From the NCBI GenBank assembly GCA_036244855.1, contig BQKZ01000046.1, forward strand, positions 127,760 through 191,759: a stretch of 64,000 nt of DNA, in the 5' to 3' direction. Of the stretch, positions 1,188-56,699 are shown piece after piece; position 1 is the first letter of the stretch, and each line of letters starts with the position of its first letter. Both the position numbers and the translations under genes were made by a program. This DNA is from Temnopleurus reevesii (taxonomy: Eukaryota; Echinodermata; Echinoidea; Temnopleuroida; Temnopleuridae). Below the pieces are notes generated by a model. The model was not told where the DNA came from and searched no databases. It worked only from the letters and a program-made list of their open reading frames with translations.

Positions 1188-1232
1188 CTATAAGTAGTTT
1201 TCTAGCTCTGCCATTTCCGCTTCCTCGATCAA
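1188..1232 (-). CDS. Exon 6: C-terminus and stop codon
   Basis: The acceptor is CTATTTCCGCAG. Phase 0 reading gives residues 106-119, LIEEAEMAELENYL, then TAG (1190-1188). The acidic, helix-prone sequence continues the spacer of exon 5. Being short and joined over a 4.5-kb intron, this is the least certain exon. In favour are the strong acceptor, the matching phase and the composition. Another frame of the same exon stays open for about 115 codons on the minus strand, a length expected by chance in this AT-rich window. Confidence 0.55.
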   Translation of the reverse strand: MIEEAEMAELENYL

Positions 1233-4200
1233 CTGCGGAAATAGAAAATACAAAAAGAGAGACAAAAACACCATGAAAAGTGGGAAGTTTCGAAAACTAT
1301 TAGCGATGCGGTTTCTTAGGAAGAAAATATAAATGTAAACTAGATTGACATATTGATGATGCACAGACATTCTGATGTAGTATAGAATGCAGCACATAGA
1401 AAGTATCAGTTTGTAATATTACACGACCAATCTTTGAAATTGGCAAATCTGAGCCAGCCCCTATTAAAAGCCAATCTGAAGACTGTTTGTGTCATTGAAA
1501 ATGATGACTTCTTGGAAGAAGCATTCTCCATCTCATTGACCATGTTGAGAGATCTAAGATGATAAACCCACACACGTCACGACCGGCTTAAGATCTGATT
1601 TGCGAAATATATCATAGTAACGTTCAATATGGCCATTTTGAAAAATAAAATCTGTCGGGTTCTTGTTATGAAAACTTTTATAAACACTAATCACATTATC
1701 TAAATACATCAATCAGATTTACACCGGATATACACTCTAAAAACAAACTAATCAAATTTGATTAGAATCTAATCAAATTTGATTAGGAAAACAATACAAA
1801 CGGGGACACCTGGAAATCTAATAAAAATGATTAGAAAAATCTAATCATTTTTTTTTATGTGGAAATCTTATTATACTTACGAATAGGAAATCTAATCAAA
1901 ATGATTAGATTCAATTAAAAAAATTATTACAAGTCATATGTGATTATAAATCCATTTCAGAATGATTAGTTTCTATTCATAATAATATCATAAGACGATC
2001 TAATAAAAAAGATGATTAGGTTGTTTTAGAGTGTAGGGACGAATTGTTGACAAATCATTGACAAACTTGAGACTGGTCTGACTTCTCTATATGACTCGGA
2101 GTCCGATTCGATGTTCCGTCCAACGATAAAGCCTATATTATTCCATCCCCACTTCATTTTTAACTCGAGTATAAAAAAAACCTGAATAATATGCGTTCAA
2201 ATGCACTAGAGAGATATTGTTTTACTTTCTTCTATAGAATCTGGTCGTGAGCGAGTCGTAACGTGCACTCTAAATTAAGTTCGATATCCAAGACTATAAG
2301 ACTTGTTTTAACTCCGATGCATTGGTCTCTACCCACAGTCTTTCAGAGAATGTAGGTAGGAACCACACTTTCGGACTTAAATGGGCGATTCTGAACACTA
2401 CAGGTGATTATACTGAAATTATTGCAAAGCCGTAAATGTTGACGTCATGGGCTTAAAGAGCAAATTTTCATCTGGTCCAGTTGCGATCGTCTTGGAAATA
2501 TCGGAGGATCACTTCATAATTGTAGGGTAAACCTTATTTCAAATAAATTTTGTAAATGTATCTGATCTCATATCGTGGAGCAAGAAATTGTAAGTGTAAA
2601 CGGGGTATCAATCATTTATCGGTCTATAAAAATGAACCCTCCCTTTGATAGGGGTGATCCCACTTGATTTAGTGTCAAGCTAATAGAGCAGTCACACCAA
2701 CAGACTGATCCCACTCGGATCTAAAATCGCATCAACAAAATTGTAATAATTAATGTCTTATTTCATTTGAATTTCATGTCTGAAGGTATTTTTTTCTCAA
2801 TGCAATTGTACAAACTCATTGATTGAACAAAACATTAATTTATGGTTCATAGCTCGACTTTAAGATAATTCAGTTTGGCAAAAGGGATGGATTAGCCTGT
2901 ATGTGTGACTGCCTCTCAAGAGAGCTAAAATCATTATGCATCCATGACACAACGACATCGCTCTAATTCACAAATTATCGTTTAGGGATCAGAAAGTATC
3001 ATTCTGCATAATCCGTAGAACAGGGATGCATACGGCGCACTTTCTGACGAATGCCCTTTTACGGTACTTGACAGGCGATACAACTTTATTTCATTCGCAG
3101 TCACTAAGTATTAATGTAGCAGAGTGTCTACAATTTCAATGAAAAAAAATAAGACCATGTGTTGGATTCATTGTTTTTAAGTTGAAGAAATGAAACTTGG
3201 GAAGTGCATAATTCTATTTTGCCTTCAAGCTGTGATAACATTTTATTCTGAAGCAAACGCAATCATAATTCCCAAAGACACAATTTGATGCTTATTTCCT
3301 CACACATTAATCATGTGACGAACCAAATTTGATTTCATATCATACAACGTAATTTTTTACCGCAACTTTTACGCGTTCACCCTTCGGCATTTCATTTCAA
3401 GATTTGGTATTAGACAGGATCGTTTGTCATGCAATTGAAATGTTAATCAAACAAACCATTAAACCCGACTTGTTTAGGCCTACTTGATGCTTCAATCAAC
3501 GGATAGTAAAGGCAGATTGGGGGAGCAATGATTAAAAATCATATCAACCTTCCTTATCAACTGTAAAAGAAGAGTCTATTAAAAATAATTTTTTTTTTCA
3601 ACAGGAGTAGAAAAATTAAATTAATTAAAAATCCTTTTTTATTTTGTATTTGTTGTGTTATCTTTTATGACGGAAATAAAACAAAACAAAACAAAAACAA
3701 AAGAACAAACAAGTTTAAAGAAAATCGGACAAGTAATAAGAAAATTATCAACTTGTAAAAAATTTGAAAAACTGGGCAAATAAGTGACGATTTCAGACAT
3801 ATTGCCATTTTGATGACGTCATTGATCCACAACTAATCAATAATTTTGTGTTTATATTTATGTTGCAAAATACATCATTTTTACAGAAAAATGCAAAATT
3901 TGTATCAATGTAAGCATGTAAATAAGGGATCTGCATTATCTATCATGAATATCCTATATTGAAATCGTGGGGGAATCATATTTTTGGGAGAAAAGCGACA
4001 CTGATATTAATATAATAAATGGCCAATTGTGTACCTATGACGTCATCACTTGCCAATTTGTTTAATTTTTTTAAACATTCATAACTTTCATATTAGATGT
4101 CCGATCTTTTTCAAACTGTCTTTGTTTTGTTCATCTGATTTTTCTTCTCCTGTTAAATAGATATCAATTTTGGGTAGACTCTTCTTTTAAAAACATTGGC

Positions 4201-7200
4201 TAAATAAAAATGGTTATTGCACCCTTGAGTGATGAATTAAAACAGATTGATAGAAAAAAAATAGAGGAATTAATGAACGAAATCATCAAGAAAATTATTA
4301 ATATTGATGATTAATGTTTCCATCTTGGCCAAAAATAGTTATTTGTTTTTATGGTGAAATGAGAACTATCCGCAGAACAAAAAAAAGGTTGATATTGTCG
4401 ATACCCTTCTTGCAGTATATAGGGATGACTCAAACACTACGCCATTTGGAAAAGGTCGAGAATTCTAACCAAAAGTATTTTTATATCTCCATTTTATTGT
4501 AGATTGTTTGGAGATGTACAAATCAGATGCCTACAATTGACCTACACTGATAATACGTCTTGTCGTATTGCCTTTTCTTAGGACAGTATTAAAGTACACA
4601 AGACAAGTCAAGTCTTTATTGGTTATTTCTGTCGTAATTCTTGATCAGTGCTGATAGTGATTGCGGAAAACATCGAAAACAAGTTCACAAGATGAGAAGA
4701 ACGAGTATTAAGGCAATACAGCTGCATTGCAAGGTTTCACGTTTTCTTGGACACGATGTGTGATTTTTTTGGTCATCTTCATTTGGTTGTTACCCCCCAG
4801 AAAGCAAATATTGATACCTAGCCTCTCTTGCTTAAGAAAGTTTAATGATTTTGTGTCTAATTTGTTATGGTCACAGCAGATAAGTAAAGCATGAATATAA
4901 TTTGGAAATTTGTAAACCAGTCTTGGTCTGATATAGCCATACCCGACTGGGCAAAAATATTTCAGACCTTAGATACCAAGTTGAACTACTATTACTTTTT
5001 TATTTGCTAAATTTATCTTATCATCAGTTAGTATTTATTAATTTTGGATGGTTTTCTATTGTTTCATTAAGTCTAAAGACCACTTTGGTCACCCTCATTT
5101 CCGCTTTTATGATTTATTTTGGTCGACATATTACTTAGTCTAATTCCCATTTTGTCTAGTATCCATGTGTGTGAAGGCTTGGTCACACTTTTGGGTCTAT
5201 TCTAGGAAACGTACTCACATCGTACATGGAAGATTCATTAGGCTAATATTAGCCCGACGTTAACATTTTGCATAAATGAGCTCGATCGACTTTCTTACGT
5301 AGGAATAAGGCATAAATCCAAATATGTGACTGACAATAGGTTTTACTATAATTTAGATGAGAAGACGGTGAATCTAGTTTGGAGTTCTGTAGGTTTGTAA
5401 TGTCCTTCCGGGCAATACCCTACTTATTTCGACTAATATTCATTTTCATGACAAATTGGCTTGTGCTCCATTTCTTGAAAATGACGTACATATCTCATTC
5501 ACAATATATCATAGACTTACTTCACTCCTGGGGATAATGATTGAGCTCTTAATTGTGACTACAAGCTGAGTCATTTATTTGCCTTACATGCATAAAAGAG
5601 GAAAAAGTACTTTCATTGAAAATGTAGAAAACTTATTAAAAATCTTACGAGGTTTCCTCTTGTAAGAAGTAAAATTAAACAGTTGTAAAACATACAATTA
5701 AAGTAAATCAATATGTTGGCTTACGAATTTTATTTGAGTCTAATTCATAACCATATATCTTCTCACCCTCAATATGTTTCTCCTCCAAGGGAAAGGTAAG
5801 CTTTCCAAAAGCTCCTCCAGACTTCGGGAATCTGCTGAGTTCCTTTGATTGCTGTCCACAACATCATCATATATATCTCCAATCTCCGCTGATTGCTGAA
5901 AAAAAAGAGAATAAAAAGGGATTTGTTAATTGACTCTCCAAGACTGAGCAAAATTAATTCATGTAAATGGCATACATTTGAATAATCAATGTACACAGAA
6001 ATGAGTTGGATGAAGATTTATAGTAACCATGCTGAAATTCACACTTCTTTCAATAATGGAATTCTGCAGGAAAAGCATTTCGAAATCATATTGATCTTGC
6101 AAATAACCATGAGATAAATTTGTTTATCCTATGTAAGTTTACAAATTCAAAACATCCTGATGCTAATGTCAAAGCGAATATATGCATAGATAATGAACAT
6201 TCTAGTTAATATACGAACACCTAGAATAAATGTTAGCAGAATTCTGTTAGTTAACATGATAAGATACATCCAAGCAAAGCTTACAATCTATACACAGTTT
6301 AGGTTTGGATGCTCCAAGGCTTGTTTGTTTATTTGTTTTATTTCCGTCATAAAAGATAACACAACAAATACAAAATAAAAAGGAAAATATATACACAACA
6401 TACAAAAGGGCCGAAAACTAAATGGTCAATTAGTAGCTTGTTTCTTTAAGACGGACTCACATCATAGCATTTATAGCCAATATTGCCAAGCATTGATGGC
6501 GCTCCATGAACGCAGAAATGCAAAAGGTCGACGCTCAGCTGACGCTAACGCAAGCAAACTCATTCAACGTCGGTCAAGCATATTTCTACGTTCAGTATGT
6601 GTCATGAGCTCTTATCAAATGTTGACTATAAATGCCAATGTGGGAGTCAACCTTCAGATGGGCATGGCTCATCCCGATTATAAACACCAAAGATTGCTTA
6701 TCAAGCCTATGGCTGTAAGCAGGGCAGCTGAAATCGGTTAGCACAGATGTTCTTATGGAACTAAGCTAAATGAATTTACCACTTAACAAATACAACATTC
6801 TGGCAAATCCATAATATTATCATACTCGTGAAAATGGAATGAGATTCAAGGACAAGGTCATCGTTTAGCTGGAAAGCTACATCGTAGCTGAGCGATGGGA
6901 AGGTGGCCGAGAAACTAAATGTATTTTGGTATACAGTATTCAATACAGCGGGCAATACAGTACAGCTGGAACGACAGCATGTTCTTACAAACCCCAGTTT
7001 GCCATTAAGTGATCAATCCTCTAAACGTATTCTTATTCTTTCTCAAATCCTGTTCACTCTCGACGATACAACCCTATTAATAATGCAAAAAAACACAATC
7101 TTTTAATCCTTAAAGCACAATTATCATCTTTTTACTGCCAAATAGGAAAATCGTTCAAAGATTCCTTGAGATTGATGAAACTAAACAAATTAGTAATAAA

Positions 7201-7309
7201 CAGATAGTTAAACTAACACTGAAAATATTCCTATATTTTATTTCTTAATCAATAAATAATACTTGCATGTCACAAACACAAACGACGAAACATATGTCCG
7301 CGCGACATA

Positions 7310-7341
<32 letters not shown>

Positions 7342-7820
7342 TCGGAACGCTGTCACTAGCAATACACACACACTAAACATTTCAACATCAATCCAAATCT
7401 GCCACACCACACATGCTGTGTTCATATCTTCAATAGATAGAGCTAAATTACTTCTAACACAATTAAGTCTCTTACGCACATTAAAAAACAAAAACAAAAA
7501 CTCACACACGCATACACATACACAACACTTTAAACACCACTCAAAACCTGCATGCTAAACTGATAGATAGTGCTAAGTTATTTCTGAAACAATTAACACT
7601 CACATACACACACATACATACATTCATCAGATGCATCACACCATAAAAAACACACACACCCACACCCACAAACACACACAGCAATCCAAACCTGCCACAC
7701 AACACTGGCTGTGTTCATATCTTCAATAGATAGAGCTAAATTATTTCTAACACAATTAACTCTCTCACACACGTAAACACCTACACATACACAAATCAGA
7801 AGGCTCACAGAGTAAAATAC

Positions 7821-7856
<36 letters not shown>

Positions 7857-10800
7857 CACTTGCTGTTTTCATATCTTCAACAGATAGAGCTTAATTATTT
7901 CTGACACAATTAACTCTCTCACACACGTAAACACCTACACATACACAAATCAGAAGACTCACAGAGTAAAATACACACGCACACACACACACAACACTTG
8001 CTGTGTTCATATCTTCAACAGATAGGGCTAAATTATTCTGACACAATTAACACTCACACTCTTGTTCACTCACACGCACACACCCACATACACACAAACA
8101 ATGAATATGAGTAGATTGCTTAAACTGATACAGATTATAAGATGGAGACGGGGATTCCCCGAATGTTCACCGGGGAAAGTATGATCGAGTTATAAGATTC
8201 TAAAATCTTCTATTTTTCTATTCTTATCAGTAAATACTTGTTTTCATACTTTTCCACCATAATGTCTTTTTTCGTTTACAAACTTTGTAATTTTATCTAG
8301 TTTATAAACAAAACGGTAGCACAATCCCAAATGACCTATTCTCATAACATGGCATGGCTGAATATTTGAAATGAATCACACTCAATTACATTTTATCGAC
8401 TATTTATAATGACCCAAGATCGATATGAAATTATGTATGTAATCTTAGTGGAAATGAGAACACATTACTCATTATATAAATTAGTAAACATCTGGGCATC
8501 ATGGTTAAGTAAATTGGTGCCACATTCGTTTTAATTCCATGTTTCATAATTACATTCTTTGCTTCGATGAGAAATATCAACATTTGAGCTCCATGCATTT
8601 GTCAATTTTATTTTCTCGTGACGTAGAGACACATTAATCCAGATTAAATCTAAATCTATAACAATAATTTGATAACCTGTAAAATGTTCTTACACATGAC
8701 GAGCTCTCATTTAATACTCTAGTTATCGGTTAGTACTGTCAACTGTTACAGATTTTGCTTTGAAATATGATGGTGTGTGGGTGTTAATGTGTGATGATTT
8801 GTTGTGCGCGGGTGTAGAGTGGGTGATGCATAACTTAAGCGTGTGTGTTACGTGTATATTGTTACACAATTAAACATATCTATTTATATGTAATTCCACT
8901 GTTTACAAATATGATTTCCCAAATTTTAAAAATCACCAAACGAGGTTGTTGCGCAGCTCGGGAAAATGTATTAGACCAAGGTATTCTTATACGTTTAATT
9001 TGATCTTGCCGATGTAATTATCCACTCAATACTTGGCTTCTGTTAAAAAAATATACATCAAATTAAAACTAAATGAATGTTCAATTTTTTTGTTGACGTT
9101 ACCAATCAAGATCATGAAAATAAATATTTAATTAAGCAAATATATGCTCTTTTGTGCTTCTCTGAGATCATCATATCATAACTTAACTTGCTTTGAATAT
9201 TATTGATTATATTGCATGAATTTCGAACTCATAATCTGATCCCAAATCTTTATTACCATGGGTTAAAATACAACCAAAGGCAACAGATTGTCATCATCCA
9301 ACTTGAAAGTTTACTGCATCTATAATATAGCACATATTTAATCATAAATGTTGGGATGTTATAATTTGATCGTCTTGTGATATCAAGAAAATCTTTCTTC
9401 AATTTAGTTCATTATGATTTGAATTCCAAAAGCATATTAAAACCGCATAATTTTCTCTTCCAATTTGATGTATTGACCTTCAAAGCATCGCTTTCTCATC
9501 ATGACGCATTGTGATGAATGTTCGTATTTTGGCAACATTCTCAACAAAAAAATCCATGAGAAATAAATTAGCCTAAAATGTTCAGTCTAATTATCCAAAT
9601 TAGAGGCAAAGAGTGATATATAACTTTTGTATTGGCCATGAGGTTATACGTACGTCTGGAAGGCGAACGAATAGAAACGATTGTCCATCTACACTAATGG
9701 ATATTATCAAAGACTTTATATTTTGTTTCCTTCATTTTCTGTTCAAACCTCTTCAATCAGCTAAAACAATATTTTGTCAAGACGACGAGCGTATTCTCCC
9801 CACCCAACCAAAAGAGAATAGACCAATCCCCAGACGCTTCAAGTCATGAACGACAGGCAAGGCAGACAATGCTAACAATGTACATTAATGTTATGGAGAA
9901 AGACATTATGATGAACATGCAATGCAGAAGGGTATAAAAGATACATGTAACTCAATAGAAAAATGAGGAAAATGTGAGCTTTCATGTACTGTATGAATGG
10001 AAACCTGATAGACGTTATCAGTGTTCTATTTTGCATATTGGAGCGTGATTTTAAGGCAAATTATTCCTTAACTATTTTGACCATTATCTGTATCTTTATC
10101 TATATGCTATTCAAATTATCACAATTATGTTGAATGTGGGGTGGAAATACCCCATCAAAATCTGAGTTAAAAATTGCGTTAATATCTAACATGTGCACAG
10201 TGTATAAGTGTAGATTAGATTTATTTTACGGTCCTATGATATAGGTGCTGTCACCTATTTTGTCCAGATTTTGTCCAGTATGCTCAAAGTATCAAAGATT
10301 TCTCTAAAACGTCGGCATACGTTGAACGTTCTTTTTTTTTTAATTGCGAGGAAATCAAGGGTGTAAGCATCGGGCAATTATGACGAGTATATACAACACG
10401 ATATAAACTATTTTAGAAATTGAAATTAAAATTGCGTTCGACTTAACTTTTCGAAAATGGTTTATATCGTGTAATACATACCGTACAAAGTTTTGTTTAA
10501 GTTGCAATGTTGCAATTTGCACATTGTTACAAAGTTATACGCGGTTTGAACAGATTTTGATCACAGAAAAGGGAAATAAAAGGCTGAAGTAGAGGGTACA
10601 CTGCTAGCTCTGCAGAATGTGAGCGTGACAGAGTAGCCAGAGTATGCCTAACCTTCTGTAACAGAATGATAAAACCTTGGTGAATGATTTGGCTCTTGCG
10701 TGTGCTAGAAATTGGAAAATGGGTGTGTGATGGCACGAAATGATAATATAGGTGCACTACTGCACCTTTTTCGTAAAAGTTTAAAGCACCTTTTTCCTCA

Positions 10801-16800: not shown

Positions 16801-17261
16801 AATTTTCTTTTTGTGTATGTCTCCGTGAAAGATAACCCGATTCGATTCTATTTCTTCATATCTGATTTAAATTTGAGATACCTATGTTCTATACTCAGTT
16901 TCCATGTGGCCTATGTAAGATTTCAATTGGAGTCAAGTTTATAGGCAGGTGTTTTTCGAAGGCAATGATACCCTTTTTGTATAGCAACCCTATAAAAAGA
17001 CACATTTTGTCTTTATAAGGACTTCATATGACCGCACACGTCATTCTCCTGTTCTATTCAAGTAAAGGAGATGGTCGTGTTTTAAACGACACATTTTCGT
17101 GCCAAATAAGAGGCAAGGTGAGAAGGCATGCACGCTTCAAGTTCAGACTTAAAAGGGTTCTATCTTAGGGTCCTGTCTACTGATTGGTTGTACACTGGTG
17201 TAGAAAGGGTTGGAAAGAGATAGTGGGAGAGATGGGAGAGAAGGAACGACCGGTCAGAATA

Positions 17262-17324
<63 letters not shown>

Positions 17325-23300: not shown

Positions 23301-26300
23301 CCACATGGAAACAACGAAATCAATATCATTCCGACCTTTACGCAGAGATGCGAAGGTTAGCCAAAGGTTCCTGTGTTCTGCCATTCACAAAACAACATAA
23401 ACGATTGGAATTCCGATATTACTTTCTTTTCAGGGAATTGTCACAACCATATACCATATTCAGCCTTTTCAAAGCAGGAGTTTATGTGAACGGGGTTAGG
23501 TGTCAACAAGTTCCTCAGCTAAGCGATAATGGCTTGACATACAAGCAAGCATGCAATAAAGCAAAATAGGTCCCAAAATAATTTCTTCCTTCCCCCTTTC
23601 CGATCCTTTATTATTTCTAGGGGGAGGGGGGTACAAACCTCCTTAGCCGCTTGGACACCGGCCTGTTATAATAGGCTGATTTACTAATATATTAAAATTT
23701 ATGCTCGTTTCTTGCTAACGATGGTAGTAACGTGGTAATCCCGAAACCGGTTTACATTCATTGTTGCTAAGAAAGGCAAGCCTCGGGCAAGCTTTCCGGT
23801 CATCCAAAACACCCTTTGTGTATGAGGGACGCATAGATTTTGCGATCGACGAATTTCTAATTATTAATTCCATTGAATGTACCTTCATGATGTTGATATT
23901 ACGAAGCTCCAGTCATGCACTGAGGTACAGACCTCTAAAGGCCGACTCACACCTTTGTGTTTATAGCCTTGCGTCGGCCCAGCGTTTTTGAAAATTAAAA
24001 ACGCTCCCGCGTGCACTGCATACGCTGATCAGACGATGGACTAATGTTCCGCTAACTCTTAGGGAGCGTGCGCCGAACGTCATTCCACTGTATGACCTGC
24101 GTCTCTGCAAGTCAAAGGAGCGTTTTTAATTCTCAAAAACGCTAGGCCGACACAAGTTAAAATAGCAAAGGTGTGAGTCGGCCTTAAAGCTTGCAGTTGA
24201 TCTTTATATTATCCACCATTCATAAACTTCATCCTCAGAGGTGCATGTATTTGCACATTGTGACTAACAAATTCACTTCGAAAAAAGTAGTAGGAACGCG
24301 TTTTGGGAAAACGAAANCTGTCCACGATCCATCTTTAAGTCAGCGTATCCTCCGTAAATATTGCGTATCTAGTCCGTATTCATGCGTAACATGTACGTAT
24401 CGTGCGTATTGCAAAGAACGGCATTAAAAATCGAATACCTGCGCACTTTTACCTAAATTTTACGGATAGATACGGACGTTTCACGCAAAAATACGCAAAG
24501 ATACGGATCAATACGCATGATACGGAATAATACGCAAATTCTACCTAAATTCTGCGCAAAAGACCTTGCGTGGGAAATTTAAAATAATTGTGAGATTTTC
24601 AAAACTTTTTCGCGGAAGACCTCGATTCCTGCGCACTCCCACGGATTTTTACGGATGCACTTACGGATGATACGGATTGCTGCGGATTTTTACGGATGCA
24701 CATCCGCAGACATGCGTATCGCGCGTATCTGTCCGTCTGACCATAGCATTAGCAAGAAAACTTCAAACGTTAGATAATTTCCAACAGTAATTTCAGTTAG
24801 CACATATTTTCCACATCATGCTCGTGATATGAGCCAAGACTATTTCCCTTTAATTTTCCGACTATTTCATATCAATGAAGACGAAAATGTCAAATAAAGA
24901 AGTGAAACACGACAGAGAGATGAAGAGAGAAACGCGCAACAGACGGGAGCAACATGCAATGTCTGCCGACAACAGACGGGCAAGACGTGACCAGAAGATT
25001 GCCAATTGGGCTGGTCCGTGCCAGTGATGAAGAATTAAGTTGTGGGGTAATTTAAAAGCAGATCCCAGAGGGTCCTGTGTAGGATTGATGACAGTATACG
25101 TCATGTGATGTTCGTCTACGCTTACACATCAGAATATATGAGAAGAATACTCCCCTTCTCCGGAAAGAACCATTCAAATGCATGCCTTAAAGGTTTCACA
25201 AATCCACTGTCCTAAAATAGTTTGGAATAACTGCGAGAAATTAACATATGCGGAAAAATTCCAATGAGGCCAGTATAGGCAGGAGAAAATTATCTTTGCT
25301 AAAAATATAAGTGTATCTTCATCTTCAACTTAGTCATTACATTATGAGTCATGAATACATTCATGGCACACACTACAATGGTGCATTAAAAAGACAATTT
25401 ATTCAGTCAAATCTCTTGACAAATTAAATTTTGTTTCACGATCACGTGGTGAAGTCAACCTCTACAAAATAACGACGGATCAGCCTATCTCTAAAAGGAT
25501 CTGTTTGCCTAGCTGTGGAACATGTCTTGATGTTAATTGAAACTGTTGGCTGGTTCAGCGGTTTGACGTTGGTTTTTGGTCAGTTTATGTGAAAGGAAAA
25601 TCGTGATTGAATGTCAAAGTCCTTGCGAACTCTCTTCCTGCCGATATACAACCCCGTTCGTTAACCAATATGCTTGAAAAACACCGATTGGGGGTGCTTT
25701 TAGCTGACACATGTACTCTATTTTACAGGGGAAAAAAGTCTGATGAGAATCTACGTTTGGTGAACATCTACTGTTATTGAATACGAGACACTTATTCATC
25801 TTTCAAAAGTGCCCCAAACCCTCTGCTAAAAGATGACAACGCGGGGGCACTGACTCCCTTCACGTACTATTTGCATATCATCCGCAGGAAAAATCCCATC
25901 TTTAAATCTAACGTCACAGGTCTTATTTCATATTAATCTTGTAATAAATATCCATGTACTATTATCAGAATGTCGCTCGTCTAAGACATCGCCCGTAGAG
26001 TCGTAACCTACTAATAAGATAGTGCCTGATCACGTAAAAATATACTGTATACAATTTTATCTTTTTATTTAGGCGAGCAATACGAATTCTGAGGGGGGAA
26101 ATCTAGCGCACAGACAAGAATTGGCATCGGTATGCTATAAAAATTAAAGGTAGACGTTAGTTTGGTTGCATTTAGAAAGATGGGTCCATACATTCCGTTA
26201 CATCGTGTTGACACGTAATGGGGTAGTCACACGCGCTAGAATGATCACAAACGGACTTATCTTGATAAATCATTTAAATCACTCATTTCGATATAATAAT

Positions 26301-31856: not shown

Positions 31857-31897
<41 letters not shown>

Positions 31898-34800
31898 TTA
31901 ACAATCAGTATTGTTGGTGTTGGAAAGGAATGTCACAAAAATATCCGACGAAAATAAGAGCCCTTTTAATTTCTTTACCGTTACTATTTCTACACACTTG
32001 TTTGACTTGTCATGCTCCTGTTGAAAGCCTAACTACTAAGTATACCTATAACTTTATAAACATTATTGAAGAGATTTGTTAAAAAATAATGCAATTAAAT
32101 AGAAATCCCATTTTTCTTGACCAAATTACAAACTTCTAACGCAAATTGTGCAATTGCATGTACTAAACCCATATTCAGATAAAGAGAGAGAGTACTTTTC
32201 ATGTTATTCAAAACATGGTTTAATAACAACCATTATGTCGTTATATGTATCTTGCGCTACAGGTCTCCTCGGTCAAGCAGTTTTATTTAAAGGACCACCT
32301 ATTTAAATAAGAAATAGAAAAGAATGCACATTGTGTTTGGGGTTTTCCCTGCTAGTCAACACATTTATAATATCACTGTTACGTAATTACGTGATCTATT
32401 TAATATGGCTCTGATCTGAGATCTAGTTTGTAATCGAGCAGGCTTTGATCAATTGAAAAATAATGATTATGCACACAGTCATGATAGTCGTCATTCGTTT
32501 GACGCATATTCAACTGACCAGTTTTTCGTATTGATATATAATGATCTATTTCTATGAATTTTAATCTTTTTTTCCGGTGAAAACAAAATATATGAAATAA
32601 TATATACAGATATAAGAGCAGATGACGTGATGGGCTATATGCAGTAAGGCTGAAAATTGAATGATTTTAATTTTTGGGGTGACGCTAGATTGGATGGACT
32701 TTGGGCGATCTCAATTACTAAAACTTGAATAATATCACTGGAGATGGTGTGTGGTTGGAGGCAAATATGGTAATGAAATTAAAGGTGCGTCTATCGAGGG
32801 AGAAAGTGACCGCTCAAAGACGATAGGTCTAAATACACCGGAAATGTAGATCATCCAGTTATCTGCTTAAACAGACTTGGAATGACCACTTTATTAACGC
32901 TACAGTGAAGAAAGTAACAACCACAGCACATCATCATGATCATGTACATATTTCTGCTTAAATTCGTATATGATTTTTGATCTACTTTGCAATTTAATCA
33001 TATTTAAAAATCTTAAGAATTGATGGTGTCATCACTTTAATTCAATCTAATATTTGACAATTAGTTTCCAAATAAATCCCGTTAAATTATCACTTTTATT
33101 TTCTTCCATGGCTCCTCCGTCGAGCACGCTGTTTAACTGGAAGGCCCACAAGGTTTGACTTAAACGACAAATAAAAATAGAGTGAATACAGTTTCTAAAT
33201 ATGAAGAAAAATCGTACGAAATTATCATCAATTTTATTTATACAGGGCGACTTTGCAGGCGAAAGAAGTTATTAATTCAAAATCAAATCTAGGAATAAAT
33301 ACTAAGGTTCTTAACGATATGCATTTACAAAATTACACTCAATAATTTGATTTCTTTTTCTATTGGTATGGAGGTATTAATAATAATAATAATAATAATA
33401 GGGGTACTTTTAATGCGCCAGATTCCACATGAATAATGTGCTCAAGGCGCAGGACAGGAAAAATTTAAAGAAAAGTAGAAGCAATTAATATGAAGAGTGT
33501 ATTAGTCCTGTTTATCAAGAGAGCCATGGGAAATATTAATATAATACATGGACACCGATACGTGATGGCAACAGTTTCACCACCAAACCACTCGGGATTC
33601 AGTCAAAACCACTAAGTAAGACATACGGGTCAAAATGAATTGAAGTCTTATAGTGCAAAGCGTTAAACATGAATAATCCAAAGACGTTAATAGAATATCA
33701 TTCAAGCCTGCTACTACCAGCGCTCATATTCCCTCCAAGGTTCGTCCCCTACTCATTCCTCCAGTACTTGCCTTTTTATCGATCTCTTCGTCTTTCTCTT
33801 TGTGCCCCACATTGCTTTTTAACTGTCTCAATTCTAATCTCTCTTTCTTTCCAGAAACAAATGCCTCACAATCGTGTGTCTACATTCCACGTTACAGATC
33901 TAAAACCCTATTTTCATGTCATTTCATTTGACATGTCTTGCTGAAATTACCCGTTGGCATAGGAATCTTGGACAACCATACGTTCTGCTAAAAACCGAGA
34001 GACAAGGCTAATAGTCCGACGAGTCACTAAAAACAATTTGGCAATCTAGATATGCCTGCTTAATCAATCCCTCTATTGTTTGGGGCAATTTTATTTGAAA
34101 TGAAAGACTCTGTCGCTTAAGTCCTTTATAAAGGGATTCATTCGCCGAATGGAAGGTTACCATCATCAGACGCGGCCATTTTTATCACAGTGCACACTGA
34201 TCAGCCACCGAGTGCCTGAAAAAAAAAACATTTTGGAAAACGCACCACATCCATAATTCCTTAGTATAGGCCAAATTAATATTTTCTACAAACGTGAAAC
34301 AATAAAGATCGACTCACATCCTCCTTCATGTTTTTTTATCCTGCGTCGGTCCAGCGTTTTAAAAATAACAAAACGCTCACTGAACGCACAAATACACAGG
34401 TCATACTATGGACTGACGTTTGGCCTATGGTACTTGAGCGGAAGCCCAAAGTAAGTCCACCGTCTGATCCGCGTACAATTTGGGATCGGGAGCGATTTGG
34501 GCCCGATAGATGTGACTACCAATAAGTTAGCCATGCAAGCAATGGGGGAAGAATGTGAGGTCAGGCAAATTAGTAACTAAATATTTCCTAAATTATTCAG
34601 AAATCAAGTTTTACATGTGATTTTGCAACCGATCAATATTTGAAGCATTCATTTCAGACCAAGGTATAATTTATCTACTTCTTATACATTTTGTCTTTGT
34701 AGGTTGGTATCAAGTGTGGTAACCAAATGATTTTTCGTCACAGTCTGTGTTGAAACATCTTGGGTACTAACAGTGCATGGGTCAAATAAAGAATAGTGAT

Positions 34801-37096: not shown

Positions 37097-37155
<59 letters not shown>

Positions 37156-40100
37156 CATTTAAAATTGCAACGTTTAGGAATGTAGTATCTGTGGGAGTTC
37201 TATACGATACGCATTCGAAATTTAGCAAATAGTTCGTGAATTGTAGAAAAAAAGAACAAACGATAAGAGCAAAACGGTTTGTTCTTGTACTGGAAAAAAA
37301 ACTAACATTTCCTAGTGTCTTCGTCATTTGGAAGTAACTTTTAACACATTACTGCTCAGCATTTGTTCGCAAGAAAATTCATATTTTCCCATTTTCAAAC
37401 ACGATTCTATACGCTAGTAATCCTGAAAAAATATATACATTCCGCTAAAGTCACATGGAAGTGTTTTGCAATTTATATCTTCGTCTGTGGATTCAAAATA
37501 ATTCATATTGTCATGGTAATGAATACATTTTGCAATGTAAGCACATTTTAATATCATGAAAAAAAGTTTTAAATGAACAACACATCTCTGGCAATCAGCA
37601 TAGCCTATTCCTACCTTTTGTCTTAATAATTAGCTATTTTAGAATGTTTGTCTGTGATAATTAATCCCCATTATATTCCGAATATTAAGGGGAAACCGAC
37701 ATGCGATAGTATTATCAAAAGAAATCACATTATGTTTTTGAAGCAACTGATAAATGATAAATGTAAGTGACAAGTCAAAGTGTAATTATGTATCAACATA
37801 TTGCAAACATGAAAGCCTCACCGACTGATTAGTTACCAATATCATTTACAAAAAAATTAAATATGTTTTAGGTTGAATCTATGAAGTATACTTGAAATTG
37901 CCATAACAGACATGTAGTCATGCGAATACGATAAAGCGATAAGAAAAATAAAATCGAATCACAAAACGGACTAAAAACCTATTCACGATGTTTACAGGAG
38001 GAAATTGGCTCATTTTCGAGTGTATCTGTGGGAAACATTTGAGAAGATAGTGGTTGGAAGGAAAATCTTAAGTTTCATTAAATGTAGTGTCAAGAACATT
38101 TGGTTGTTTTACAAGTTGCGAAGGTGCTTAGAAACCCTTCAGTAAACTCTAGACCAAATATAACAAATGAACCACTGGTTTGATTTAAATAACGTCAAAG
38201 TAGTGTCAAATTTCTGAATAATTGTTTACTCCCTCGCAGAATGCAGAGACCATTCGTAAGCATGATACTTGTCTGCATGAAACTTGTATTACGATTTTTA
38301 ACCCGCAGTTAGTAACACGTCATGAAAATGAACACTAAAATATAACTGATACGCACTTATGATTTATTAATTAGGGCAGCGACCTTCTTCAAACATACCC
38401 ATGAACTGCACACTTCTAAATGTCGGGTAAAATAAGGAATTCGTAATAAAGTTTGCGTAAAGTGAGGGAAGAACGGCACATCGCACAATTCGAAACGAAC
38501 ACATATCAAACACATTGCATATTAACTAGGAATTATTGTTCACAAATAGGTGTAAAATTACACCCACAATGCCATTAACGTTTTAATTGAGTAAACAAAG
38601 GTAAATACTTTCTTTACCCTGTTACAGAAAAAAACCCGAATTGTGTAGATTCATAACGGATAGATAAGATAGATAGATGAATTTTATTTCAACACGGTAT
38701 AAAAAAAAACAGATACAGAGTCTGGTTACATTGGGGCCGTGCCGCATTGAACTTAAACATATCGGGTAATAAACTATTTTGCTTCTAAACACCTTTTCCT
38801 CATTTCAAAACAACAAGAACAATCTAATGCTTGATCTCTTTTTAATTGTGAAATAATATGATTAAGAAATGCCACAAACGACCCATAAATGAAGGGGTGT
38901 ATATTGTATATATAATTCCTGATATCGTTCACGGCCCAAGCTAATGTTTGCTGAATGTGTTTGTAATTGACTACTGTGTGACGTGTTAATGCTCTTGACA
39001 CGTTACCATACACCAGTACCACGTGATGTCTCAGTTAATTACTGAGTCATTTAAGGTGTTGTCTCAACATTACATCATAGAGCCAATGAGAGATTTGCGA
39101 TTAATGCTACTACTTTCCTAGTAGTGGTGTCAGATCGGGTGAAATAATTGCTTTGGTATTTGCCATTTATTGATTGTCCTATACAATCGTCGCTTATGCC
39201 ATCATATCACATTGCGTGTCACCATTGCCATTAAGCGCTCCGACAAACACTTTCATTAATAACATACATAGATTATACCCCTTGTAAATTAAATTTAAGT
39301 TGCATATTTTTTTCTTTGCACATAAATGCGCAGGGATAATGCTTAGCTGATGGTTACATGTGCCTAAACTTCAAGCACAACCTAACAAATCCAGAATTAA
39401 CCAAGCATCTTCCTTGGATATTAAGGCCGATTCACACCTTTGTGTTTTTAGCCTGCGTCGGCCCAGCGTTTTTGAAAATTAAAAACGCTCCCGAGAGCAC
39501 AATATACGTTGATCAGACGATGGACTAAAGTTTGGCTTGCGCTCAATAAGCGTACGCCAAACGTCAGTCCAACGTTTGACGAACGTCGTTTCACTGTTTG
39601 TGCGTCCGGGGAGCGTTTTCAATTTTCAAATACACTGGGCTGACGCAGACTAAAAACGCAAAGGTGTGAGTCTGTCTTTAAATAAATTCAATCTCTGCTG
39701 GAAATAAATCAGCTATCAATGCAAATGTGTAGCTGAGCCGTCAAGATGTGTTTCCGATCGAATCCACATCTTCCATTTTATTTCCCCTTCTCACCCGATT
39801 CGCTCTCAACATATCTTCGTTTATCGAATATCATACACAACACCTAGATGGGTCATGTCTATTAACCTGCTCTCTACATAGATTTACACTCGCAGAAAGC
39901 ATCCAAGCATCCTTCGTAAATTTGTTTAATCCAAAATAAATCGGATTTCACTGAGTACCGAATGTGAATACTCATTGCTTGGCTGTGGCGTATTGCGATG
40001 TCGTACCTGAAAGGGGGTCCTAAATTTTTGACATAATGTTCGAACTCAAGCCTACCTGCTGTTTGCGTTCAACTCTAAATGTCATACAGTATTCTTAGCA

Positions 40101-42839
40101 ACATAGTGTTCAATACTATCTCGTTGAAATTACATTCTGCATCATTTTATATTACTGGTATTAAAAGCAAACTGAGGCAAAATTTGTCATAATTATGATA
40201 AATTGGAGACATTTCAACCACTGACTGTTCTAAGATAGACTGCACTGCAGCGGAAGTGGACAACCTTTACGCGTTATAAGAGCAATGCGATGATATTGGC
40301 GCCTAGTATTGAGATGAGGGAACCCCTTAAATGCATCCTTCCCCTATCAGGAAGACGACTTACAATATTGACACTACTTTCTCTTACGGTCGGGATAAAT
40401 ATAGCGTAATTCATCCCATAACGAAATGAATCGCTTCCGCATTCTGAGGTGAATCAATATCTTTGGTATACATCTAGCTGCCTGTGAGCCCAAGTGTTTT
40501 GATATCATAATTTCGCTTTTGTGGTTAGATGAGAATATATAGTGGGGTGTCTGCTGCAATGTATTAGGTGCCTGTGAGTGAATGACCAAGGTGGAAATAA
40601 TTACCCTGGATAAGTAATTTGTTATGAATATTTATGGAATGCCACTGACGCAGTGGCGAGGGAGGACCTTTCTTTCCAATCATCAAGATGATGGAATCAT
40701 GGGGAGGACATGAACTCAACTTCCTTCAAGATCACGATTTTCATCTCACTTAGGGGCCCCTTCATCACCCTATATGGTCCAACCCGTAGAATTCAACTAT
40801 ATCACATTTTATAGATAGTACGTTCGAAGTTTTAAAACACCTGAGCACTCACGTTTTGCCTAAAATAGTGTGTTGTTTCGTGCAAGAAATATTACATAAA
40901 ATTAGTTTTCAATTAGCTGTCGATCAAACGATGGAAAAGAGATTGCGGAGGTGAGAGGGAGGGCAGCATACAAAAAACACACCCACGTACACCCACATGT
41001 AAATACACACCCACACACCCACACCCACCCATCTATCCCCGAGCACAAGATTGACCTATTTTTATCTCTTTTTTTTTTGTTTAGAGATTTTAGAATTTTA
41101 CATTTATATATATTGCTTTTATTCTATACAAAGTTTTTTTTTCACTCTCGGAAATGACAGAAAGATTAAAAACTAGAAACTAGACAGAAACGATTTCCAA
41201 ACTTCCCATGAAATTGTTGGGGTATCTTGATAACATGTAATTGGAGATGAATCGACTGTATACCATGCCCACCAGCTAGTCATCACAATAGAATGTAATG
41301 GAATGGGATTAGAAGAGATCTAGTAACCCTTTCATTGGCTTAATCATCGAAAATCACAAATGTCATTCTTACATTAGATTAAACATATCTCAGTTCAAAT
41401 CCCATAACACGATTTTGTAACCGCATTTCGGTTAGAAGTAGGTCACATCATAATGATGATAAAAGGGAAGCCAAGGGCTATGCCATAGGAAAGCACATTT
41501 TTTACGTCGGGTTCGTGCTTTCAATGTTAATAATGATAATAGTGATCACCAAATAATTCATTCACTACATTACGAACAAAATGGACCGCTACCTACAGAT
41601 ATGGACCAATTTATGCGTTGATATTAATCAACCTGAACGAAACACACGGCATCAAAGAAAAGTCACACTGCACTTTTTGTCACGTGGTCTAGAGGCGTTT
41701 TGACAATTGCTACGGGTCAGTTGATAAGAGAAATATTTTAATGAAAATGTAAATATTATCAAATAAAAATCTGAATTTGTGAAGACTACCAATAAATTGT
41801 CAGAAATCTACCATTTCTTAATAAAAGCGTTTACGTCTGTATCATTTTGATACATTCTGATGTTAATTCCAATCATTGAATTACATGCTCGTATTAGATT
41901 AGAAAAACACCTTATTCCCTGGGGCCTGTAACATAGATATATAATCAATTTTTCCAATCAATTGCAAACTTTAGTACATCATTTGCCATTGATGTACTTA
42001 CTATTGATTGTAAATCTTTATGTTACGGGGCCCTGGTGTTGTTTATAGGCTTTTATTTTTTCCACTTTAGATGCCAAATAGATATTGAATAACACCATCA
42101 TCACATCAGGGTATACTATGGATATGAAGATTTGAAGATTTGAAGATGGAAGTTCAAGATAGGTAGAACATTATATTTTGGAGCAATAGAAGGTGACAGT
42201 TTACCTGAAAACTGCACAATAATAATAGGTCCATTTATATAGCGCAATCACTATATGCATATACTCTACTGCGCTTGATAATAGGTACCATATTATTACC
42301 CTGGCTATAACTGCCGAGCAAGCCAGTTTATTAGGCGCTCAAGCATTCCAAGGAATAAATTCCCGCCAGGTATCCATTTTTCACCTGAGTCGAGTGCAAC
42401 AAAGTGCGGGTAAATTTCTTGCTGAAGGAAATGAGCGCCCTGGGTGAGATTCGAACCACCGACCCTCTAGTTAAGAGGCGAGAGTCCGAACCACTACACC
42501 ACGACACATACTGATTGCATTTATACATGTTTATAAACGTGAGGTAACGACATACCGTATTCTATATTACTTTACGACGTCTTGTTTCTTTTTAACAAAA
42601 CAAAAATACTCTGCTAGAAACCTTTTGTTAGAGAGGTCAAAATCAACGTCCATATCACCATGGTTTTTACAACAGCTTCACTTGAACCTGTCAAACATGT
42701 CCAATATGTATATATATATATATATATATATGCATGTACATACATACGTAAAATTAATTCCAATGAGGCAGTGTACCGACAGAAGGAAAAGAAGAAGGAG
42801 AAGCGTAAGAAAGGAAAAAAGGGAGAAAAGAAACAGAGG

Positions 42840-42896
<57 letters not shown>

Positions 42897-48800: not shown

Positions 48801-51800
48801 CCACGCATATAACCATGGTTATGTTAAAAGATATTTAACAATAACTCCATAACATAAGACAGTGTCTGCTTAAAGACCGACTCACACCTTCGCGTTTTTT
48901 TCGGACCGGCGTTTTTTAAAATTAAAAACGCTTCCAGGACGCACAGCATACGCGGATCAGACGGTGGACTGACGTTCGGCTTGCGTTCAAGGAGCGTACG
49001 CGCCAGTCCACCGTATTTGTGGATACAGGGAGCGTTTTGCATTTCCAAATACGCTGGGCCGGCCCAGGCTAAAAACTCAAAGGTGTGAATCGGCCTTTAA
49101 GCTGTCAAAAGGTACAAATGTGTTTTTTTTTTCAGTAGCTTCGCCGTTTATGTACCTTATTTTCTAGGTGTGTACAAAAAGGGTGCAATAGCGCATCATG
49201 TCGAGTTTTGCTGCAGAATGCAATTTTCGTTTTTGCACCCTCTGCGCACCTTTTTTCTTAGTGTGTAAAATTATTTTATGCATGATGGAAACATGATATA
49301 ATATACGGATTTTGACTCAATTATAAGGCGGAATTATTGATTTAAAACTTAGACAATACGGAATTACAATACCGGAAATAATATCATCGTAATATGACAT
49401 TCAATAAAGGATGTGATTGACACAAATCCGATTACATTTTATAATGGCAAAATATAATCGTAGAGTAGAAGAATAACTCTTAACGTTCTACTTGATCACT
49501 CAACGTAATGCAAACCTATATTTACACAGGTAAACGAAATATAAATATGATAAATATACATCGTGACTTCGTAGTTAGATTTCTTTTCATTTTTACCATT
49601 ATACAAAATTAATATGCTGCCAATTTCTATCTTTAAATGTTTGCACGCTTTTTTTGTCTTAAATCTATTCTTGACTATGTGCAAAAGCAAACAAATATTT
49701 AACAAACACTATAAAACTCTGTATTCGTGTGTCACGAATCGATTGATATTCATTCAATATATTGAATTACACTGTTAAAGTGCAATCAAATCTTTGCGTC
49801 CATCGCTAACGTCAGCAAACACGTTCCGTGGACGCAGAAATACGGATGGAGGACGCGTGGCCGACGTTGTAGTCCAGTTGAGGACTGTGTGTTCTGATAG
49901 CCCCCACCTCTTCACAGTCTCTTACACTGAACACACAGGGGCTGCAATCACTCAACCACAGAGTCCTTACATAACCCTCTGATCGTGTTTGGAGGCGCGA
50001 TCAGAGTGGTATACAGATGACAGATCAGAGGGTTATGTAAGGACTCTGTGGTTGAGTGATTGCAGTCCCTGTGTGTTCAGTGTAAGAGAATATGCAGAGG
50101 CGGGTGCTATCAAAACACACAATCCTCAACTGGACTACCGAAGTTGAAGCCATTCTCCATGTGTTCAGCTTCAGCCACCGGATCTTTGCGTTGAAAGAGC
50201 ATTTTTCCTATAACACATTATATGAACGATGGGCAGACGTTTTTTTTTGTCTTATGTAAAATGTGTGATTGGGACTTCTTCCAAGTACACTCCAGATATA
50301 TAATATCAATATCCAAACATGATGTTCAAAATCCATAATATGCTGAAACTCTTCTGCCGGACTCACTCTTATTCTTGACGAATTCCTTGACTGTTTCCTC
50401 AGTCAGATAATGTATTTAAGTCATAACCATGCATGATCTGCTTCCTATTCATGTAACATCACCAAGTTCTTTTTAGCAGCGCGTTTTCATTTGCCATTCT
50501 AACCCATATTTCATATCAAATAGCGTTAAGAAATTTTGCCGCAGACCTATGATGTATTTAATTACACACCCATCAGTAAATAGCTATTTAAGGAACATTA
50601 ATTAATTAGAGTGATCGTTGGGTGACTGAAGGTTTACAGATTACCACCGTTTATACAGTCGATTTCACTTTATTCTTCCTATATTAATTGAAAAAAAAGA
50701 TCGAAGCAATTCAATTTCATATAGGTAAGCGTCAGCGGTGTTCTTTCTGGGTTTGTGTTTACCTACAAGGAACCATTGTACAAAATCAACTTATCGAAAT
50801 AATTACATCTGTAATGGACCGGTGGAATGTAATAAAAATCATCTAGCATGAATAGCTTCGGATAAGTATGAAACCATCTAATTCTAATTAAAGGGGAACG
50901 ATCAGTCCTTAGATAAAGAAAAATAAGGTTATTAAACTGTGAACATTTGACCCAGATCTCATAATCCCTGAGTTGACAACATTGTGTGACGTTATTGGTT
51001 ACAACTCTCCATTCATTATATACACAGTATTAAAAAAAGTGTTTTTTTTATCTGGAAAGAAGACAAAGTGTTGGTTTCCTCCAGCATATAGCCTGTTCTA
51101 GTTAATTTTAAGCGATTTTTGAAAGGTTCATGTTGAATCACGCTGCTAGATTTGATATTCATCCATATTTTGAACATGTATATTCAAGTGAATGTGAAGT
51201 TGTGCTGTATCTCGTCACAGATTGTGCCTAATTTGCCATCAGAGGACGTAAATGCAACTTAGAAAATTTATAACTTTTAACGGGATTTTGATCGCATTTT
51301 CTTAAGTAAGGTCATTTTATTCTTCTTCATCAACTAGGAGCACATCATTTCTAGGGTTTTGTTTCCCTTACCTGCTTACAATAAATGGGTAGTAAATCAT
51401 AAATAAATATATAGTGTGCTTGCATGCCTGAATCCAATATAATAATCAGTTTAGAATTTGAAACAAAAACACGTAATTTCATATGAGGGTCAAAAAGACT
51501 GTGAATGGCAGTTTTTTTTTGCTTAAAAAGAATAATTCAGCATCATTTCTGCTAAAATTCGAAAATTGTTTGACCCACATAAGTCATGTACAATATATGT
51601 ACAAACAATATCAGACCAAAATAGGATTTCTCGCAGCGTTTATTCACGGATTGACATATAAGGGCCTTTCAACTGATCACGCTCAAAAAGGCCTTAAGTG
51701 TGAAAATGTTTGTCTTCATTTTTCGTTCGTTCTCAAGGGATATACCCCCATTCCCTTCCTTTTCCTTATTTTCAAACTTGGAAATCTAATAAAAGTATAA

Positions 51801-54800
51801 AAGTTATGATATTATGGTCTTCATAATTTCTCAAACAGACACACCCACACCTAACTGCTCTCACACATTCTCCGACATAATAGCGTACACATTGATTTAC
51901 TCTTTTTGGATACGACATAATTTATATGGTTACGCATACTTATTGCACACATTTACCTAAGTCAATCAAAAGGAAATATACGCACGGGTATGCGTACACA
52001 AAAACCACATACATAAAAAAAATCTGCACACAAATACACTTACAAACACACGCTCACTCACACCCACATACACAAACGCAAACATGCAAATGCTTTATGG
52101 AAAACCGACAACGCCACAAATCGTAATAATCAACGCATGCCTTTTTTTTAGCGAACGTATGGTAAAACTAGGGCATTCGTACTAAAGGCCGGCTTACATC
52201 TTTGTATTTTAGACTGCGTCGGACAAGCGTTTTTGGAAATTAAGAAAACGCTCCCTGGACAATATACGTTGACCAGACGGTGTACTGACGTTCGGCTTGC
52301 GTTCTAGGAGCGTAGGCCGAACGTCAGTCCACCGTATGGCCTGCGTCTTGTGACCTCGATGACACACATGTTCACTAGCTCTAAGAGAATTAAACATTTT
52401 GCCTTGTACATTTTACAATCATCTTTTTAAGCTTGATTACATTTGACGAAAGCATTTGATCATCTCCAAAAGGCTCCCGAATGCAGATACATATCGCAAA
52501 AACGCGGATTTTCATTCTGGGAGATTATACCCTGATGCTTGTTGATCAGGTTGATGATAATGGAAACATCATGCCTGACTGAACAAACCCTCGCTGCAAT
52601 TTGTTCTCGCTCACTTCAGAACAAATAGAATTTTCAGAGAGATTAGAATGGCTATTCAGTCGTTTTCTTTTGGGTTACCAAATCAAATGGGGGAAAATTT
52701 TTATCTCATTTAATGAATTCGTGAGAATATAGAGAAAGGCAAATACTACAAGAAAAGTATAGCACGGCATGTATGAATAACTACAGGACTGATCAAATGA
52801 AATAGGTTTAATGAAGATGTACATTGAATTTGGAATTAATGCACATGAAATGTAAAATAAATTGAATATAGTGTTCTCCCTGATAAATTGCTGATTGCAA
52901 CAATCATCCAGATTTGAAAAAGTCTATACAATAGAATAACCTCATTTCTACAGTGGAATTGTCTTGTTGAAGAAAAAGTTATAGAAATGTGTGGGGGTGT
53001 CGTGGTGTAGTGGTTCGGACTCTCGCCTCTTAACTATAGAGGGTCGGTGGTTCGAATCTCCCCCAGGGCGCTAATTTCCTTCAGCAAGAAATTTACCCGC
53101 AGTTTGTTGCACTCGACCCAGGTGAAAAATGGTTACCTGGCATGAATTTACTCCTTGGAATGATTGAGCAACAAATGTTGATGAAACACCCCCTGAGTTC
53201 ACACTAAGGGGGAAAAATGCAACTTTGACGTATATGGGTGCAAAGTAATGCAGACACCGGGAACATCTTTTAGGATGCAACATTGCACCTAATTGTACAA
53301 AACACATGTATTTAAAAATGTGGCAGTTGTGGAGTTTGAATCTACTTCATGAATGATCGCTTCATTCCGAGGTGAGCGACTTACCGACTGATTTGTAAAC
53401 TATTCTTACACAAATTAGGAAAAAGAGCAATATTGCACCTTTCTGAAAGAAATGTAATATTGAAAGCAAAAGGGTGCTTCGGATGTGATGTGTGTATCAA
53501 CTCCCTTCCCAATCCTGTTTATGTTTCCGAAATCTTCAGTTCGAAGTTTCAAAGTAAACTATGCAATATGACTGTGATATTTATAACTATTAATAGCATT
53601 GCTATTTCATGCGAGCTCAAAAAAGATGAAAAGGTCATCTCACAAAATCAATGAAATAATTACCATTATAATCTTATTTATTATCCATATTTTCAATTAC
53701 CTCGCTTTTATTAAAATAATCTGTTTCACTCATTATAACAAGCGGTGAAGAAGAAAATGAATGTACACATTTCCCAAACAGAATGAGAAAATATAAGCTT
53801 TTTCTTGTATAAGCTTCAAGATGAGATTTATGTAAATCTAAATCAGAATATCATGAACGATTCCCAGTTTATGATAAACCCCACTTGACCTTTGTAAACA
53901 GCTCGAGGCTAATGAAAATGTGGCACAAAAATTATCATGATCGCCAAAATCTCTGGAAAATGCCCCTTGGATATCATACATACATTTGGCACTAGAAAGC
54001 CGTTGGTTCCCACAATTTCTCAACAACCAATGCATGCACGGTATAACAAAGAGGAGAGTCAACTCTAGAAATGTTCTCCTCTTCTTTTCTTGTACCGATA
54101 TTGTATGAGTTTGAATGCAATCTTGTGTACTGATTGAGACAATGGATCTGTACATTACAAAGGTTTGATGGATGAGACAATTTCTCTTGAAATGACCTTT
54201 CATTACAAAAAATCAGAGCTAAGATGCAGCACCCATGACTTATTATAACGTTAAGAGTGGAAGAGCAGTTATAAATGGTAGAACTATACCACTTCCAACC
54301 CCCCCCCCAAAAAAAACCCCCAAGATAGACTACTTAGTTACCCTGTCAAGGCATATCTGAATGGAATCATTTACCAAAAGGGTTTCAAAATTATTGGTAT
54401 TTGGAAATTGGTAAAAGAATTGTTCTTTTAGTCGTTACTCACATCACTGATCATCGGTGTTTTCCTCAGCAGGTCAGCTACTCCCGGAAAAATACTCTTC
54501 AGGATAATAACGAACTAAAAAATTGCCTCTGGAAATTGCCACTCAGAAAAATTATACCCTAACCCCTTGTCAACCAAATTTTGGACAAGTGTCCTAGGAC
54601 ACCAGCCCTGTGACAATTACCCTTAAGTCGTCTTTAACTAGGCATGGGCTAGTCCTGTCAAGGTTTTTCATATGTATTTACTTTGTTCATAGATGCTGTA
54701 TTTCTATCTTGACAAATAAATAAATTAAAATCAAATCAACTACCAGAGGGCATCTACCCTTAAACACCTTCATCCCAACATTGTTACCCCAATAAGGACA

Positions 54801-56699: not shown

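Follow-up and report, generated by a model that had tools for sequence, protein, structure and literature searches.

A six-exon gene of the sea urchin Temnopleurus reevesii probably encodes a conserved two-disulfide peptide prohormone

The minus strand of the window, the whole stretch of 64,000 nucleotides of Temnopleurus reevesii that we analysed (part of contig C46 of the 558-Mb genome), carries a small gene whose exons 2 to 6 are real, conserved coding sequence. With a candidate first exon upstream, this gene probably encodes a slowly evolving two-disulfide peptide prohormone of the echinoid, which would be processed as outlined below. The preliminary description had proposed six minus-strand exons that join in frame into 119 residues, and this arrangement held: the exons total 360 nt, coding for 119 residues and a stop, and are separated by five GT-AG introns. 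The exon lengths also bore out its figures of 12 codons for two exons and 43 for the longest. The predicted C-x-C-x6-C-x3-C framework, the KR six residues past the last cysteine and the acidic tail were all present in the joined protein.

The coding part of exon 1 (56699-56639, minus strand like all the exons, 61 nt) comprises the ATG and a putative 20-residue hydrophobic signal sequence, and ends in phase 1 at the donor CAG/GTATGT. Exon 2 (16405-16370, 36 nt, phase 1-1) encodes D-STACKCRTGNQ with the first cysteine pair, and exon 3 (15994-15959, 36 nt, phase 1-1) encodes K-CWTKCARIYHS with the second. These two exons are adjacent, and because both are 36 nt long and symmetrical in phase, skipping either one would preserve the frame. 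Exon 4 (15523-15471, 53 nt, phase 1 to 0) contains the KR cleavage site and the start of the tail. Exon 5 (5895-5767, 129 nt, phase 0) encodes acidic tail with a conserved LPFPWRRN stretch, and exon 6 (1232-1188, 45 nt including the TAG stop; LIEEAEMAELENYL) encodes the end of the tail. The introns measured 40233, 375, 435, 9575 and 4534 nt, with phases 1, 1, 1, 0 and 0. Splice sites were scored with approximate weight matrices. On these, the exon 4 donor scored highest of all minus-strand donors in the window, with that of exon 1 about sixth. Among acceptors, those of exon 2, exon 3 and exon 5 ranked second to fourth in the window (exon 2 second, exon 3 third). The donors of exons 2 and 3 scored lower, 3.9 and 2.6, though both start with GTAAGT.

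Between exons 1 and 2, a search for the 43-codon exon gave poor candidates only; the homologs place this exon at 5895-5767. Intron 1 contained repeats at 23970-24103, 34342-34475, 39454-39587 and 52214-52347, and others at 42330/53037 and 49869/50023. They are short, dispersed and inverted, resemble small mobile elements (MITE- or SINE-like) and do not overlap any exon. At 7696-7997, a 154-nt unit occurs twice in tandem with 95% matches, within CA-rich sequence. The window has 26 stop-to-stop frames of at least 95 aa; the 10 that were searched for further genes gave no Pfam match at E 0.1, and Rfam gave no match in the window.

The joined 119-residue protein matched four "uncharacterized" records from three sea urchins, with E values of 2.2e-49 to 3.7e-46. 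The loci are LOC105441013 of S. purpuratus, LOC121412051 of L. variegatus and LOC129255804 of L. pictus, and none has an assigned function. The ortholog alignment was gapless at every junction among exons 2-6, with a single gap inside exon 5. A query that lacked exon 5 still retrieved S. purpuratus LOC105441013 and L. pictus LOC129255804; as these two proteins carry exon 5 at the right place, the retrieval amounts to an independent test of the gene. Exon 5 showed 76% identity to S. purpuratus (tblastn, E 2.9e-18), and exon 6 showed 80% over 15 residues. The exon 2 peptide did not differ between T. reevesii, S. purpuratus and the two Lytechinus species, apart from Y in place of D in record P0004, and that of exon 3 differed from all four records at one residue (H for Q). 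The cysteine framework and the KR six residues past the last cysteine were retained in 4 of the 4 ortholog records. The loss of the four cysteines or the dibasic site in relatives had been named beforehand as grounds for abandoning the proposal, and both were conserved. The build of a prohormone within a small genuine gene was likewise supported, the cysteines, the KR and the acidic tail all being kept in sea urchins. The orthologs had 4 or 5 cysteines; in P0002 and P0003 the extra one precedes the motif on its N-terminal side.

When 5.8 billion proteins were searched with a profile, the same four records alone were returned. Their E values (2.5e-61 to 1.4e-60) are inflated, because the window protein and three of those very records had gone into the profile. 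Such a search depends on words of five residues being shared, and genes with exons as small as these often go unannotated, so that absence of the gene outside echinoids is not shown by it. No second copy was found in the genome of T. reevesii itself: four of five matches at E <= 10 were the gene's own exons, and the fifth (E 4.25) was at chance level within a receptor-like open frame. The locus identifiers and the peptide strings were absent from the main text of the literature searched. The gene had been called hidden, which was partly right. The NCBI models are unnamed and their N-termini disagree, but models do exist in three urchins.

The predicted 20-residue peptide was identical to that of each urchin at 19 of 20 positions, whereas in the remainder of the chain, starting at KR, 57-60 of 76 aligned columns were identical. 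With Fisher p values of 0.06-0.11 per pair, the suggestion that the peptide is conserved beyond the rest of the chain is no stronger than suggestive. The tail was conserved too, so function could lie there. The bioactive product might be a piece of the tail, for example the part around LPFPW that precedes Arg-Arg, or the helical 18-mer that follows it at the C-terminus. The last 33 residues kept 27-29 identities with the urchins, which would be unusual for a mere spacer, and this second dibasic site (RR) was found in all five sequences. However, the cysteine peptide was the more conserved part, and no Gly for amidation precedes RR. We regard a tail-derived product as highly improbable and the cysteine peptide as the probable product.

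The start of the protein was more difficult to establish. Upstream of exon 2 a stop lies at 13 codons with no ATG between, which rules out for this species a translation start of the kind given in the S. purpuratus model, immediately ahead of exon 2. Without an upstream ATG of its own, exon 2 needs an upstream coding exon if translation starts at ATG. Over 204 kb of the contig, we scanned both strands for first exons of phase 1 with a donor score >= 4.0 and hydropathy >= 1.8. The scan yielded four minus-strand candidates, two of which are one exon with two ATGs, and one plus-strand candidate. Exon 1, with a donor score of 6.2 and a peak hydropathy of 2.9, was the most hydrophobic of them. It encodes the signal-like sequence MAQVTVVLLTGILAFLLIVS, and its ATG lies in a strong start context (AAGAAATGG) with an in-frame stop two codons upstream. 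Among 20 Mb of simulated sequence, 3, 14 and 67 exons with donor >= 6 reached hydropathies of 2.8, 2.5 and 2.0. An exon like exon 1 (donor >= 6.0, hydropathy >= 2.8) is thus expected 0.006 times per 40.2 kb of one strand, under thresholds that were chosen after exon 1 had been seen; the expectation rises to 0.028 at hydropathy >= 2.5 and to 0.135 at >= 2.0 (donor >= 6). The 600 nt before exon 1 had a GC content of 0.443, a value that just 0.9% of all 600-nt stretches in the window attain, and the GC of the first 300 nt was as high in 2.1% of window stretches. This GC content suggests that a promoter or 5' untranslated region may lie at 57299-56700 on the minus strand. Against exon 1 stands its position 40 kb upstream of exon 2, which implies a long intron. 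Judged from these sequence features, exon 1 is very probably the true first coding exon.

The ortholog records complicated this assignment. Sequence comparison found exon 1 in none of the four. Exon 1 might therefore be foreign, with a true first exon that lacks a signal sequence, and the product would then be a small intracellular four-cysteine protein, perhaps a metal-binding one. Both L. pictus records begin with spliced upstream exons that do not resemble signal peptides, which agrees with that alternative. However, the N-termini of the four orthologs are mutually inconsistent, even between P0002 and P0004, which both derive from a single L. pictus locus, and none of the four had a convincing counterpart in the 204 kb of contig. 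In P0001 and P0003, T-rich codons and S-D stand directly before exon 2, and we infer that these N-termini may be read-through of the intron tract and TCAG acceptor before exon 2. In the five-sequence comparison, a hydrophobic stretch of 16 residues in the P0001 N-terminus weakly matched exon 1 (44%, E about 0.01). Together with the low chance expectation for exon 1, these observations make an intracellular protein quite improbable. A signal peptide and secretion had been claimed from the outset. The candidate exon is hydrophobic and rare by chance, but it is missing from all four ortholog models, and for this reason secretion is no more than likely.

If the prohormone is built as we propose, exon 1 would supply the signal peptide, and signal peptidase would cut before the first cysteine or a few residues earlier. 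A cut at S-T-A/C is plausible because it fits the -3/-1 rule, and it would leave CKCRTGNQKCWTKCARIYHS before KR. Two disulfides between the C-x-C pair and the C-x3-C pair would hold a short helix in place. Cleavage at Lys-Arg by a prohormone convertase would come next, followed by carboxypeptidase trimming, to give a basic, non-amidated 20-residue peptide whose action would be at a receptor on the cell surface. The acidic tail would serve as a propeptide for folding and sorting, or be released itself. The predicted 20-mer has a net charge of +5 and the tail a net charge of -11. With two disulfides, the calculated monoisotopic mass of the 20-mer is 2381.076 (2372.076 for S. purpuratus and Lytechinus), and that of a 24-mer beginning at Asp is 2755.220 (2746.220). 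In cysteine-stabilised helix peptides, Cys1 pairs with Cys4 and Cys2 with Cys3 around a helix. The predicted structure was of low confidence (mean pLDDT 59.7, pTM 0.23). The model of P0001 had a helix over Q42-E59, which includes C-x3-C, with C-x-C in coil; at this low confidence, the arrangement would be as expected of a cysteine-stapled helix.

Among solved structures, the 55-mer version, the ortholog profile and the 20-mer had no significant match. The best PDB matches of the 20-mer were scorpion potassium-channel toxins, at non-significant E values of 1.9 and worse, so that its top resemblance was to a toxin and not to a hormone, a point against the hormone reading. The peptide might be secreted and cut as proposed and yet act directly on membranes or ion channels, in defence or in a venom-like manner. 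A net charge of +5 on 20 residues would suit such an action, as would the weak, non-significant likeness of the C-x3-C part to the scorpion K-channel toxins (E 1.9). Venom and defence peptides, however, usually duplicate and diverge fast, while here no second copy was found and the peptide is near-invariant. Direct action on membranes or channels is therefore unlikely. The receptor-ligand function of the predicted peptide is putative.

The gene had first been described as endothelin-like, and this survived only as an analogy of build. Mature endothelin has about 20 residues and two disulfides, is not amidated and arises by dibasic processing; it has the framework C-x-C-x7-C-x3-C, a hydrophobic C-terminus ending in Trp, and a second cysteine repeat in its precursor. 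The gene product shares with the vertebrate endothelin precursors (PF00322) the C-x-C...C-x3-C order, the length of about 20 residues, two predicted disulfides, the non-amidated end and the dibasic site. In contrast, the pairs are separated by x6 rather than x7, the peptide ends before KR in ARIYHS (ARIYQS in the urchins) with no Trp, and the window protein has only four cysteines in total and lacks a second repeat. No Pfam family was assigned to the 55- and 76-residue versions or to the four orthologs. A PF00322 search of the whole genome gave no match on the contig of this gene. Elsewhere it gave 21 weak matches at E <= 10 (best E 0.048), 8 of which were marked as over the family cut-off, two of them only with their neighbours. 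Three matches, at C2141:51322-51387, C5834:4912-4977 and C3546:35521-35586, had identical scores (E 0.198) and are probably copies of one repeat. That the product is nevertheless an endothelin-type ligand of ambulacrarians, a partner of some orphan bombesin/endothelin-group receptors, with its phase-1 intron a relic of a bombesin/endothelin/CCHamide ancestor, seems rather doubtful.

Other known peptide systems offered partial likenesses. The CCHamide and GGNG precursors, and with them starfish Arnp25 and the brittle-star CCHamide-like precursors 1 and 2, resemble our predicted protein in placing a small disulfide peptide right after the signal peptide with a dibasic site behind it (PMC5627052, PMC4772807). 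Whereas those peptides, including the CCHamide-like ones of echinoderms, have two cysteines and an amidated C-terminus, ours has four cysteines and Ser instead of Gly before KR; the features of CCHamide or excitatory peptides (two cysteines, Gly before the dibasic site) were thus lacking. In the echinoderm bombesin-type genes, the peptide is split by a phase-1 intron, and an intron of phase 0 falls within the C-terminal region (PMC12002301). Here, similarly, intron 2 (phase 1) splits the peptide, and introns 4 and 5 (phase 0) lie in the tail. On the other hand, bombesin-type peptides are amidated, the one of starfish is without cysteine, and the echinoderm bombesin genes have three coding introns (PMC12002301), in contrast to no Gly before KR, four cysteines and five coding introns in our gene. 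The likeness in intron phase is a single feature and may be due to chance. No such peptide appeared in the portions of PMC9793003, PMC6586643, PMC5818035 and PMC6209648 consulted; in that of PMC9793003, two amidated four-cysteine candidates of a crinoid have a different design.

A search for receptors of the bombesin, endothelin and CCHamide type in the same genome had also been suggested. There were at least 149 class-A receptor matches, of which 80 loci were read, and four were picked by eye via a bombesin-type third-helix motif. Comparison with solved structures covered these four of the 80. Each of the four is one open frame of 377-397 codons. The best match was bombesin receptor subtype 3 for L060 on contig C997 (E 1.8e-47) and L082 on contig C566 (E 5.4e-38), the neuromedin-B receptor for L087 on contig C6920 (E 1.3e-40), and the gastrin-releasing peptide receptor for L098 on contig C1358 (E 2.2e-32). 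The endothelin B receptor was among the matches of L082 (2.1e-27) and L087 (1.5e-28), always below the bombesin receptors; it was neither among the best 60 matches of L060 nor in the L098 list at a cut-off of 1e-22. The search thus produced four loci of the bombesin/endothelin group, but an endothelin receptor was the best match of none of the four compared, and no clear one appeared in this sample. One further class-A match, at C5251:32652-33545, falls within an oddly long open frame (11205 aa) that might be an artefact or a masked region. Receptors of the bombesin/endothelin group in this genome are possible candidate partners of the peptide. In starfish, ten bombesin-receptor-like proteins (ArBNR2-11) are left without a known ligand, and the presence of the group here, judged by sequence likeness, agrees with that expanded orphan set (PMC12002301).

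Taken together, these results make the gene a promising candidate for a hormone or neuropeptide that has so far gone unrecognised, because its peptide has hardly changed between urchin species and is without a described function. Sea urchins are model deuterostomes. Their neuropeptide lists come from screens for signal peptides in predicted proteins, according to PMC6209648, and in the present case a near-invariant peptide with two predicted disulfides lies behind gene models whose starts conflict. If secretion is true, the gene would add a peptide signal whose cysteine framework we found described nowhere, and a testable ligand for orphan receptors such as starfish ArBNR2-11 (PMC12002301). 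The time of origin of endothelin-like signalling would then become directly testable.
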